A stretch of 64,000 nucleotides of DNA. It comes from Utricularia gibba. Its lineage: Eukaryota > Streptophyta > Magnoliopsida > Lamiales > Lentibulariaceae. Location: contig NEEC01000015.1 in assembly GCA_002189035.1 (NCBI GenBank), positions 1,860,001 to 1,924,000 of the forward strand, written 5' to 3'. Below the pieces are notes generated by a model. The model was not told the DNA's origin and searched no databases. It was given only the letters and a program-made list of their open reading frames with translations. Of the stretch, positions 23,140-51,884 are shown in pieces. Position numbers and translations under genes: made by a program. Position 1 is the stretch's first letter, and the number at the start of each line of letters is the position of its first letter.

Positions 23140-24498
23140 TTACATTGGAAGCTTCACGGACTGGAGTGCTCCTTCAAAGTTCTTTTCCTTCAGATCGACG
23201 TACTCCTTCACCGCCACCGGACGGAAATACGGAACCGGGAAGATGGGAAGCGGCGCCACGGTGGAGTTCATCGCGGGACAACGAAATAGGCGCAGGTTAG
23301 GCGTTGCGCATCAGCGTTAGGAACAACCCGATGGTACGCGGCAGTGAAGCATGCGTTCGAAAGAATATGCATGAGGTCACCCAAGTTGACGACGAGGGCT
23401 CCGGCGACGGGAGGCACGGGCGACCAACCTGAACATGCACGAAAAACTTGGAGACCGTAGGTGTTGTTTTGATGGAGAATGGTGAGAGGGAAGGTGTCTG
23501 TGTGGGGAGCTAATCCGATGGCCTTGTTAGGGTTTGGACAAATAGGGTAAGAATTCAACTGCAGTGCTTCCGATGGGTTGTCATAGAGAAAGGAGATGCG
23601 GCTCTTGATGCCCTCTTCTTCCTCGTCCTCCACTCCCATTGCTTTTATGATGATAAGAAGAAGCTTGCGCGCTAGGGTTCTCATCTCCCTCTGATACTCC
23701 TCCATTGTACAACTGCAATTTTTTAATCTTTTAGTAAAGAAAAAAATGTTTTCCCATGGCATACTTATAAATACTTATTAAAAATAATTCAAATAAATAG
23801 GATATGTAACATTATAATATACACTAATGTCATATTGGAAACTAATTTGTTTAAAAAATATATTTTATAATAAAGAGACATCAACGTGCTGTGTTAACGA
23901 CCAAATTCTGTTAGTAATAAACCAAAAGATGATGCACATTGACATAACGACGGTTACCAGAAATCGTGATGGTCATTTGGCCAGAGAAGTTGAGCATGTT
24001 GCGCGACGGAGCCCATGATGGTGAAGCCCTCGTGCCACATTTGTTTCCGGAAGAAGGGGATATACGCGCCACCCCATAACCGGTGGCTCCGGTGGCAGAT
24101 CGGATGGCGAGAAGCTTCTTTTCCACCGGGAGTGAGAACAAACGCTGTATTTGCGCCTCCACCTCCCCTATAAGACTCTCCGATACTCGGTGGTTGATGA
24201 CCTGAAACATTCCCCACACCCTGCACGCACTCCTCACCCGTTCGACCACGTCATCCGACGCCAAATCGATCACCGGCGGCGAGACCGCTGAGTCGCCCGG
24301 AGTCGAATCCTCCCAGGCGTGAGTCTCGGGAAGCTGGAGAATCGAGGAGAAATCAAGTGGCACGATGTTGCTGAGCTGGATTCGGGATCCAGAGTAAGCA
24401 TTCGAGAGAGAAGAATCCATTCCCGGGATCGGAAACTCTTGTTGTACTATGGGAGTGGGGCAGCTGAGCATGGGATGCGACCCTTTAAAAGCGCCCAT
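23140..24498 (-). CDS. GA3OX: Gibberellin 3-beta-dioxygenase (GA3ox), two frameshifts
   Basis: Two exons, 24498-23958 and 23712-23140, with the single intron at the usual GA3ox place (DFC junction). The family start MDSSLSNAY (24420) is possible as well as the upstream in-frame ATG at 24498. GA3ox features: TGYGVARI, KQMWHEGFTIMGS, ALQLNSYPICPNP, Fe ligands in APHTDTF and AAYHRVV, and GLQVFRACSGWSPVPPVAG. It would convert GA9/GA20 to bioactive GA4/GA1. The 2OG-binding R-x-S is R-x-T (RLT). The C-run complementary to 24056-24059 is one base short (expected RIS-x-FFRKQMW), and a second base is missing near 23276-23281; beyond it the expected end (YFRPVAVKEYVDLKEKNFEG) continues in another frame to 23140. 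Either a pseudogene or assembly errors. Confidence 0.85.
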
Positions 24499-25164
24499 GC
24501 CCTTCAAATTCGACTTCTTTTATTAATTCGGCACAAGCAGACGACGCACAGGACAACGATGAATTGTCCCTTTTCCCCAATACGCAACCGAATCATGGAT
24601 TCCTGGCACCCAAAAAGGCTTTGATAACCAATTCATTATTTATAATATTAATTTTATTTCTAAAATAATTTTACTTTCTAAATAGATATCAAATTATTTT
24701 CTACTATAATTCTCTAATCATCGAAGTAGCTTCTCTAGCATATATAAGTTATTTTGATTGATTTTTTCCAATCGAGTAAAATGAAAAACTTCATGGGGGC
24801 GCTGCCCCCCATCGTCGTATTAGGTATAGAACCAGGGAGAGCATCTCGGGAATAAGGGTTTTGACGTGACTCGGACTTGTGTGAGTGTGCTCCCCATGGG
24901 AGGCGACATTAGTAGCTAGAAGACATGAGTCATTTCAAATATTCCGGAGAAAAAAGGACAAGCCGATAGAGAATTCATATTTTGGGTTTTAATATTTCCG
25001 GGAAAAGACAAAACACCGTTGCATCGTTTGTGTCACGGAAAGGTTACATCCCCTCGAAAACCTCCACTGATTCGTGTTTATCTACCTGGATCCCCCAACC
25101 CTTTTCTCCTCAATCCATTTATTCTTCCTCTTCTTCTTCTTCCCTGGAGAGACCGCCATCATCG
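24499..25164. promoter_or_regulatory. Shared divergent intergenic region of the GA3ox / GA20ox pair
   Basis: 666 bp lie between the two outermost start codons (744 bp if GA3ox starts at 24420). A TGACGTGA element, a TGACG core of the kind bound by TGA bZIPs, is at 24862-24869. The centre (24620-24780) is AT-rich and the GA20ox side is a CT-rich leader. The region is short enough for common control of both oxidases, but that is inference. Confidence 0.45.
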
Positions 25165-26603
25165 ATGGAAACCGAGAAGCCGGACTACATTTGTGCAATG
25201 AAGGCGTTATCCGAGAAGCCCACCAACATGCCGTCGCAATTCTGCTGGTCCCCGGAGGATCTAGCCTCCGCTGCCGCCGACGAGCTCTCCGGCGCGGCGG
25301 TTGATCTGAAAGGGTTCTTTGAAGGCGATGCGGAAGCGACGGGGATTGCTGTGAAAAAAATAAGAGAGGCGTGTCTGAGCCATGGGTTCTTCCACGTCGT
25401 CAACCACGGGTGGATGAGGGGTTGATAAGAGAGGCGCATGAGCAGATGGGTGTGCTATTTCAGCTGCCGATGGACCGGAAACTGGCCATGAAGCGGAAAC
25501 CTGGCGAGCTCTGCGGCTACTCCGGCGCCCACGCTGACAGATTCTCCGAGAATCTGCCGTGGAAGGAGATGCTTTCGTTTCACTACGAGCATGCGAGCTC
25601 CCCCGGACATGACGTCGTCCGTTACATCACTTCCATCCTCGGCAACGACTTCCATGAAACCGGGTTTTTTGTTTCTTCCCCTTCCTGGGTTTTCACTGTT
25701 AGGGCTCCACGTGTTAGTTATAATCGTCTGATGCAATGCATGCCCAGATTTGTCGTCTAGTTCCTACAACCACAACAGAAACAATGTGGGCTGCTGATAT
25801 TTATTACTATTATTCTTAATTCTGGTTATTGCGCATTTCAGGGTAGTCTTCCAGCGGTACTGTGAAGCGTTGAAGGAGTTGGCGATGGGAATATTCCGGT
25901 TGCTGGGGATGAGTCTGGGTGTGGAGGGGAGATATTTCGAGGAGATATTTGAGGACGGCGGATCTCTGATGAGGATAAATAACTATCCGCCGTGCCCGCA
26001 TGCAGAGCTCACGCTCGGCACCGGACCTCACACCGATCCCAACGCGCTCACCATCCTCCACGAAGATCTCGTCGGTGGCTTGCAGGTTTTCACGGACGGC
26101 AAGTGGCGCCGTGTCGCCCCGCTCTCACACGCGTTCGCCGTAAACATCGGGGACACGTTCATGGTACGCCACACGAGTTCAGACTTCAGTTCCCTCCCTT
26201 TCTTTACATTTTAATTGCCGGAAAAAAGAATAGATTCAAACGCACGGCGGTTTTTAAAATAATAATATTGTGTAAAAAAAGAGAAGTTTTGTCCTGCGTT
26301 GGATTCGCAGGCGCTATCGAACGGACGGTACAAGAGCTGCGTACACAGAGCAGTGGTGAACAAGCACAAGGAGCGGAGATCGATGGTTTTCTTCGTCAGT
26401 CCGAGGGACGACAAGTCCTACGGCCGCCGCCGGAGATTCTGACGACGGAATCAGGGGAGGAGAGGAAGTACGCAGACTTCACGTGGTCTCTTCTTCGAGG
26501 GTTCACGCAGAAGTATTACAGAGTTGACAGCGCTACCCTCCAAAGCTTCACCCGTTGGCTCGCCGTCTCAGGTGAAAACTCCTCCTCCGTCTTACGCAAT
26601 TGA
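25165..26603 (+). CDS. GA20OX: Gibberellin 20-oxidase (GA20ox), two frameshifts
   Basis: Three exons, 25165-25663, 25842-26163 and 26311-26603, with both introns at GA20ox positions. Family signatures: NMPSQFCW, LPWKEM (for LPWKET), NNYPPCPHAELTLGTGPHTD with Fe ligands His and Asp, VNIGDTFMALSNGRYKSC, distal His in HRAVVN, and R-x-S in RRSMVFF. It would oxidise GA12/GA53 stepwise to GA9/GA20, the substrates of the neighbouring GA3ox. Two single-base losses break the frame: GGG at 25408-25410 should be GGGG (VVNHGVDEGL), and AAGTCC at 26413-26418 should be AAGGTCC (DDKVLRPPPEIL). On either side the protein is well conserved, through DFTWSLLRGFTQKYYRVD. No other ATG lies in frame upstream. Confidence 0.87.
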
Positions 26604-49531: not shown

Positions 49532-51020
49532 TCAGGCCCACCTCTTTGTGACTCTGACCTTCAGGCCATTTTTCATGTAGAGAATGACAGAAACGTTGGG
49601 GCTCACTTGTGATCCTTGACTACTTCAATTCTGTAGTTATGAATGATGGCCGCTGCCACGGCCTTGAGCTGAGTGAAAGCAATCTCTTTCCCAAGACAGG
49701 TCCTTGGCCCAGCGTTGAACGCCATGAACTTGTAGGATGGCTCGTGCTTCACAGTTCCTCGCTCAGTCATCCATCTCTCCGGCTTGAATTTCTTGGAATC
49801 TTTCCCCAAATGAAATCCATCCTCCCCATGGAATATAAAGAAAACATGACCTTCATCTTTGGGGTCACGTAGTGACCACTGGGGAGGAAGACCGGTTGGA
49901 TCGGGGTTTTGTGTTGGAACGGGACCGGTGGGTAGAGTCTCAGTGACTCGCATAGGGAGCAGTGCAAGTACACGAGGTTTTGCAGCTCTTCGTTGGTGAA
50001 CACTCTTGGTTTCTGGGTTTCGCCTTGGGGTATTATGGCGTTGAGCTCTTGGCGCAGTTTGTTTTCGACTTCGGGGTGAGTGGAAACGAGCCATATGAAC
50101 CATGTTAGAGCGGAGCTGGTGGTGTCACGGCCGGCGATCATGAAGTTGAGTATGGTGTCTTTCAGGAATTTGTCGTCGCTAATCGGGTATGTCGATTCGT
50201 CTCCGGTCATGTAAGAGGTTAACAGATCGTGACCTTCTTCGCCGTTCTTCACTTCCTCCCGCTTCTTCGCGATGTAGTCGGCGATCACGGTGTGTAGGAC
50301 GTGTTGTGCTTGCTTAAGCTTCTGTTCAGGGCCGATCCGGAGAAGCTTCCCCAGCTTCCAGAGGCTCTCCGGGGTGATATGACGGATGAATATGGTTTCC
50401 TCCGCCGCGTCCATGGCGGCGGAGAAGGGTACATCGGGAAGATCGGGTGATAAGCACCCCGGATCAAACCCTGTCACCAGTATACACGTCGTGTCGAAAG
50501 TGAACCGCTGGAATACATCCTGTAAATCAATGACCATCCCTTCTCCGGCAACGTGGTCCAGTACCGGAATAAGCCCCTTCGCCACCTTGTCGGCGCTGGT
50601 TCTGATCAGAAACCGACGGAACCTCTCGTGAGTGATCAAAATCCGGGCCTGCTTACGTTGGCTACGCCACAATTCTCCATCGGAGTTGAATATCCCGTCT
50701 CCCAAAACATCGAAAATCTTCTTAAACTCATCCCCTTTAGGAAAATTAACGAAATTCTCACTCATAATGAAGTGAACATTAGCCGGATCGCCGGTCGCCA
50801 GGATGTCCATGTTGAGGAACCAGGGCCCTTTCACGACGAAAGTTCCGCCAACTTTCTCCATAATATCGGCGCAGCGGTCGTGGACTCTCCCGACGTGGCG
50901 CAGCAGGTGCGGCAGATTCCCCACCAGCGGCCAGTTCCGAACCCTGCGAAGCTTCCTCATCTTCAAGCAAGCGCACACTAAGAAGATCGCGATCACGGTC
51001 CCAGTGTAAGCGGACACCAT
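49532..51020 (-). CDS. Cytochrome P450, CYP96 family (two frameshifts)
   Basis: An intronless gene of about 496 residues, as usual for CYP96A. An N-terminal membrane anchor ([16 protein letters not shown]) is followed by [35 protein letters not shown]-helix [13 protein letters not shown], ExxR in [15 protein letters not shown] and heme loop [18 protein letters not shown]96 enzymes include the midchain alkane hydroxylase MAH1, which makes the secondary alcohols and ketones of wax; ER location. Two single-base losses break the frame: near 49801-49807 (expected [14 protein letters not shown]), and at 49606, where GATCACAAGTGA should read on as [20 protein letters not shown] to the stop at 49532. 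Sequence on both sides is highly conserved. Confidence 0.9.
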
Positions 51021-51884
51021 GTTTTCTCCCCCCGGGCGCCGTTAAGATCGAAGAGTTATGGTAATGAATGAAACATAATACTCGTTTTATACAACAAAAG
51101 GAAGCGTACAGGTGCTTTCTTGTCTATGCAAATAAGACAACTGCTTTTTGGTATACGTAGCCATGGTTAATTACTCTGGTTGGTAGCTGATCTGTCCCCT
51201 ACTGGACCGGCCCGGTTTACCCGGTTTATCTGTTGGAAACAGACGACACGATTCACTGCGGGGGGAGGAGACGTTAAGTGGCGACGTCATCAACCGGAGG
51301 AAAAGGAGACACCGTGGCGAACTGCTGACGTGGAATAGCTACGGAGTTTCCAACGCTATCGTCACCTTACAAATGCTTAGTGCCGAAAGATTCTTTCCAT
51401 TTTCGGTGCGTCGAAAATTAAAATATTAAATTCGATTTTTTTAAAACAAATACTCTAAAATGGAAAACATTTTATTCTAATGAAAGGAAATTGTGAGTAA
51501 AAGAGGCCCAAGAGCGTGGCCCATTAGCAGCCCAGAGGGTATTCATCCATTTTCAACTTATTCAAACAGAAACGCGCGTCCAATCAGAGGGCGCCATTTG
51601 CCATCCCTACCCCTCTTTCCCAAAGCGAACTTGGTCTAGGAGTGCAATCAATTTCTCAAATGTGTGTGTAATCGAAAAACATAAAATAAAGGAAGAAGGA
51701 GAAGCTTTGCTTTTGCGTTCATTGAGTTCTACGGGTTTTCTTTGAGGATTTTGAGCGTGGGGGCGTTTTCTTGGGGTGCACCAACTTTACCCAGAGACCC
51801 TAGCGATCTTCTTGTCTCCTCTTCACAAACAAGCGGAAAAAGATTCCAACTTTCCATCTGGGTTGACAGCAGATGCTCTAGCAG
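51021..51884. other. CYP96 upstream region
   Basis: Promoter of CYP96 (minus) and the unknown leader of a possible plus-strand unit. It contains GGCCCA/CGGCCCGG boxes near 51208 and 51508-51530. No gene is recognised. Confidence 0.4.

Follow-up and report, generated by a model that had tools for sequence, protein, structure and literature searches.

Does the head-to-head position of a gibberellin 3-oxidase-type (GA3ox) and a gibberellin 20-oxidase-type (GA20ox) gene in Utricularia gibba mark a functional unit of hormone synthesis, or are the two genes neighbours by accident? The question was addressed in a window of 64,000 nucleotides (C412:1860001-1924000), the whole stretch of DNA that was analysed, which lies on a 2.57-Mb contig of an assembly of 100.09 Mb in 516 contigs. 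Gene models were obtained by spliced protein-to-DNA alignment with a custom aligner, using several reference proteins independently.

Identity and structure of the two genes

The GA3ox-type gene (23140-24420/24498, reverse strand) lies head to head with the GA20ox-type gene (25165-26603, forward strand), and the location given in the first-pass annotation was confirmed, with stop codons at 23140 and about 26603 (Table 1). The distance from ATG to ATG is 744 bp when measured from the GA3ox methionine at 24420, which is the better-matching start, and 666 bp when the first in-frame ATG (24498) is taken instead. All splice junctions of both genes are GT-AG and were recovered independently by several references; full-length homology and these exact junctions leave no doubt that both genes are real. 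The read-through proteins of both genes matched PF14226 and PF03171 well above the cut-off.

Table 1. Positions of the features of the gene pair, numbered from the first letter of the window.
Feature	Position	Strand	Remarks
GA3ox-type exon 2	23140..23712	-	stop codon 23140-23142; HTD...H and RLT; apparent 1-base deletion near 23275-23280
GA3ox-type single intron	23713..23957	-	GT-AG, phase 2; column and phase shared with GA20ox intron 1
GA3ox-type exon 1	23958..24498	-	likely start Met 24420 (MDSSLSN...), earlier in-frame ATG 24498; apparent 1-base deletion near 24055
Divergent spacer common to both genes	24421..25164		744 bp, 41% GC
GA20ox-type exon 1	25165..25663	+	LPWKEM motif; apparent 1-base deletion near 25408-25412
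GA20ox-type intron 1	25664..25841	+	GT-AG, phase 2
GA20ox-type exon 2	25842..26163	+	NNYPPC; HTD of iron site
GA20ox-type intron 2	26164..26310	+	GT-AG
GA20ox-type exon 3	26311..26603	+	VHR, RRS; apparent 1-base deletion near 26413-26416; stop 26601-26603

The subfamily assignments made in the first pass held in the protein trees, where the GA3ox-type protein fell inside the GA3ox clade (support 100/100) and the GA20ox-type protein inside the GA20ox clade (99/100 and 100/100); the GA20ox tree contained seven to eight paralogues from this genome together with Arabidopsis and rice references, and finer placement is provisional, the sequences of AtGA20ox1, part of OsGA20ox1, OsGA20ox2, AtGA3ox1 and AtGA2ox1 in the trees and alignments being uncurated. 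Both proteins are on long branches (0.9 and 1.1 changes per column).

The best solved relative of the GA3ox-type protein is rice GA3ox2 (PDB 7EKD), with 230 bits against 144 for the next match. Like this enzyme and Arabidopsis GA3ox1, the gene has the two exons and single intron of the subfamily, the MW-EG motif and HTD...H. The iron and 2-oxoglutarate (2OG) ligands are present as HTD, YHR and RLT, the last of which is allowed because RxS/T is the accepted 2OG-ligand pattern (PMC7432023). The protein differs from the plant GA 3-oxidases in having RLT instead of RLS and an identity of only 40-45%, and in departing at two normally invariant sites (NHG to NHR and SNG to SNA), changes by which its activity may have been altered or lost. 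The two canonical GA3ox loci of the genome share 80% identity, and this protein is far more divergent than they are; an origin as a lineage-specific copy of these other GA3ox genes was not rejected (AU p 0.40).

The GA20ox-type gene has three exons with introns at conserved sites, and three different reference proteins gave identical splice sites. It shares this structure, the LPWKE motif, HxD...H and RxS with plant GA 20-oxidases (Arabidopsis GA20ox1, rice GA20ox2/SD1), with which the protein aligns over its full length at 42-50% identity; the iron and 2OG ligands are kept as HTD, VHR and RRS. It differs from them in its long branch, in HTD instead of HCD, and in LPWKEM, which is one change from the LPWKET motif of the subfamily. 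There was no GA20ox among the solved-structure matches for this protein, so that its assignment is based on the intron pattern, the LPWKE motif, the paralogues and the uncurated references. A lineage-specific origin by copying from the other GA20ox loci in the genome was rejected (AU p 0.007), and the gene is thus an old, divergent paralogue. It is possibly of the rice SD1 type; clustering with SD1 was hinted at by the alignment score and had a tree support of only 50/20. Another divergent GA20ox-type locus, on a long branch and with possible frame breaks, was seen at C451:1354093-1355321 (L023).

The two proteins are 26% identical and belong to different subfamilies, so the pair is not a recent tandem copy, even with a common intron position; this agrees with the first-pass annotation, which had also argued from different intron positions. 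That argument stood only in part. The GA20ox-type gene does have an extra second intron, but the GA3ox intron and GA20ox intron 1 are in the same alignment column (232), both interrupt a codon between its second and third bases, and they look like one inherited intron. The intron pattern of the pair fits the published exon rule of three exons for GA20ox and two for GA3ox (PMC7329397; PMC4587577).

Frame breaks and the state of the genes

In this assembly neither gene has an uninterrupted coding sequence. Each needs two 1-base frame corrections; in all four cases one base is missing next to a short run of G or C. The breaks near 25412 and 26414 in the GA20ox-type gene are required by AtGA20ox1, OsGA20ox2 and a paralogue, and those near 24055 and 23277-23280 in the GA3ox-type gene by AtGA3ox1, 7EKD and a paralogue. 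Taken at face value, two breaks per gene that all reference proteins require would make this a dead or dying pair, two recent pseudogenes broken by frameshifts while the genome retains eight GA20ox and two GA3ox loci besides these; the redundancy of these paralogues, the departures of the GA3ox-type protein at invariant residues and the intact long open reading frames next to the pair (387 and 667 aa) point the same way.

The background of such lesions was determined by the identical method in 22 CYP86-clan P450 loci (33.8 kb of coding sequence), which gave 19 frame breaks in 12 of the 22 genes, or about 0.56 per kb; in 15 of the 19 cases a single base was missing, mostly beside G or C runs. 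At this rate about 1.25 breaks are expected in the 2.2 kb of the pair, and the four found are a mild excess (Poisson P ~0.04). In addition, two stretches on contigs C413 and C376 are 99.87% identical over 3.1 kb and differ in a G run of a coding exon (GGGGG and GGGG), only the longer of which keeps the P450 frame. On the basis of this contig difference and of the background rate in the P450 genes, the breaks are read as probable consensus errors. The four lesions of the pair are of the dominant kind in this assembly, which is also present in a CYP96A-like gene of the window, and the pair has kept all splice sites, its catalytic residues and a sequence without nonsense codons (none in 742 codons, where 0.1 neutral changes per site would leave about 7 and 0.3 would leave 17). 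A recent loss of both genes, the main rival, is thus unlikely, and the likeliest reading is one of consensus errors in genes that were kept by selection until at least recently. The observation carries a warning, as frame breaks in the G and C runs of this assembly can make live genes look dead.

Some further loci are relevant to consensus quality in their own right. The near-identical stretches C413:5391350-5392165 and C376:12195-12962 (L050, L051) represent redundant contigs or haplotypes and are a useful gauge of consensus error. The CYP96A-like P450 gene (window 49540-51041, reverse strand), 24 kb from the pair, seems to lack one base at each of two AAGG contexts towards its 3' end, and it has close relatives at C413:5390919-5392165 and C376:11716-12962. 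The second canonical GA3ox (C321:1096277-1097030, L035) likewise has frame breaks beside G runs.

Intact genes could still have acquired a new function, with one or both enzymes catalysing a different GA or diterpenoid oxidation and the pair making an unusual GA instead of GA4/GA1. The long branches, LPWKEM for LPWKET and HTD for HCD in the GA20ox-type protein, and the diverse activities of seed GA3ox-like enzymes in other plants (PMC7758035) are consistent with this. The core motifs are kept, however, and divergence of sequence alone shows no new activity; we consider neofunctionalisation about as improbable as the loss of both genes.

Genomic context and the spacer between the genes

Elsewhere the genome has eight GA20ox loci and two canonical GA3ox loci, none of them adjacent to another. 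The pair is flanked by an ethanolamine/choline-kinase gene and a GT8 glycosyltransferase gene. A second copy of the block from genome duplication was not found; the best paralogues of three neighbours are on different contigs, and there is thus no second copy by which the pairing could be dated. Blocks apparently duplicated in this way were seen elsewhere, as a canonical GA3ox and a CYP86A-like gene lie about 40 kb apart on both C1 (2908k / 2946k) and C321 (1096k / 1138k), with identities of 80% and ~92% between the two contigs.

The spacer is unique in the genome over 24499-25164, as judged by genome search, and has TATA-like strings only near 24638 and 24740. Its single TGACG, at 24862, is unremarkable, and no Rfam match pointed to a structured RNA here. 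Two genes of the window mentioned in the first-pass annotation are real, the AHL gene by its PCC domain and the TGA factor for its DOG1-domain part; neither gives a link to the pair.

The main claim of that annotation was a gibberellin mini-cluster. In its strongest form the pair would be a two-gene GA-activation module, kept by selection, in which the spacer, as a bidirectional promoter, turns consecutive steps on and off together. The head-to-head arrangement of genes for consecutive steps, less than a kilobase apart across a unique spacer, would suit such a module, and the two genes, both divergent and long-branched, could have specialised together. The surroundings and the comparisons argue against it. 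No terpene synthase was found on the contig of the pair, these genes lying elsewhere in the genome, and no GA P450 was recognised among the open reading frames of the window. A larger GA cluster was rejected on these grounds, the P450 at 50 kb being no GA P450 and, from its sequence, looking CYP96A-like. No second copy of the pair was found in the genome, and two genes of one superfamily differ from a plant biosynthetic gene cluster, which is defined by several non-homologous pathway genes that are linked and co-expressed.

Published gene tables of two eudicots, grape and sweet potato (PMC12916950), hold no GA20ox beside a GA3ox; the linkage of plant GA oxidase genes described in PMC12916950, PMC7329397 and PMC7758035 is within subfamilies, and a literature search of partial coverage gave no GA20ox/GA3ox pair of this kind in plants. 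The linked or duplicated GA oxidase genes of wheat (TaGA3ox3/TaGA1ox1; PMC7758035) and the GA3ox tandem arrays of sweet potato (PMC12916950) are recent within-subfamily duplicates, whereas the genes studied here come from two subfamilies. Fungal and bacterial gibberellin clusters or operons likewise have adjacent genes for consecutive GA steps, but they hold much of the pathway and use P450s for the C-20 step (PMC7758035), whereas this pair covers the last two 2OG-dioxygenase steps only.

The genome itself offers a simpler background. U. gibba has ~30,700 genes in ~82-100 Mb and is compact and shuffled (PMC10663240); at 2,658 of its divergent intergenic regions the genes on either side have expression levels at least 1.5-fold apart, and synteny with other genomes extends to only 7.1% of the divergent target regions (PMC10663240). 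From these figures a divergent spacer of 0.74 kb is ordinary in this plant and does not imply common regulation. Overall, we consider the module improbable, and more doubtful still its fuller version, in which ancient GA20ox and GA3ox paralogues have co-specialised, for example in reproductive tissue, as a selectively kept, co-regulated GA-activation unit with a bidirectional promoter. Lastly, a misjoin of genes that are not neighbours in the plant is very improbable: the assembly has a modest consensus quality and contains redundant, near-identical contig stretches, but the spacer, whose uniqueness and freedom from repeats beyond A+T-rich chance matches argue against it, is far shorter than a long read and lies inside a 2.57-Mb contig.

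Origin of the adjacency and its meaning

The reading that we favour, with moderate confidence, is that of two ordinary, divergent GA-oxidase genes that lineage-specific shuffling and compaction of the genome have made head-to-head neighbours, both probably encoding enzymes and each probably regulated separately. Each gene would most likely encode a cytosolic Fe(II)/2-oxoglutarate dioxygenase. The GA20ox-type enzyme is predicted to remove C-20 of GA12/GA53 to yield C19-GAs, and the GA3ox-type enzyme to oxidise the C19-GA at or near C-3. The 0.74-kb spacer probably serves the genes separately, one half for each, and not as a common switch.

Clade placement, the match to 7EKD, the conserved intron pattern, the kept HxD...H and RxS/T residues and the lack of nonsense codons count in favour of two enzyme genes; the unpaired state of the other GA20ox and GA3ox loci, the scattered paralogues of the neighbours and the contig's lack of a terpene synthase count in favour of a chance origin of the adjacency. 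On the other side are the excess of frame breaks, the NHR and SNA departures of the GA3ox-type protein, and the low chance of adjacency of the two families, only ~0.002 (9 GA20ox × 2 neighbours × 3 GA3ox / ~30,700 genes), a figure that is given before allowing for the many other gene pairs that a reader would have flagged. The arrangement is unusual, with new members of known families, and the adjacency is probably fortuitous.

If selection maintained the pair and its two genes were co-regulated, it would offer a plant example of hormone-pathway genes organised as a unit, in which a single spacer could govern the yield of two limiting steps. On the favoured reading of two separately regulated genes, the locus is a reminder that, where a genome is compact and shuffled, genes can become suggestive neighbours and yet have no common function.
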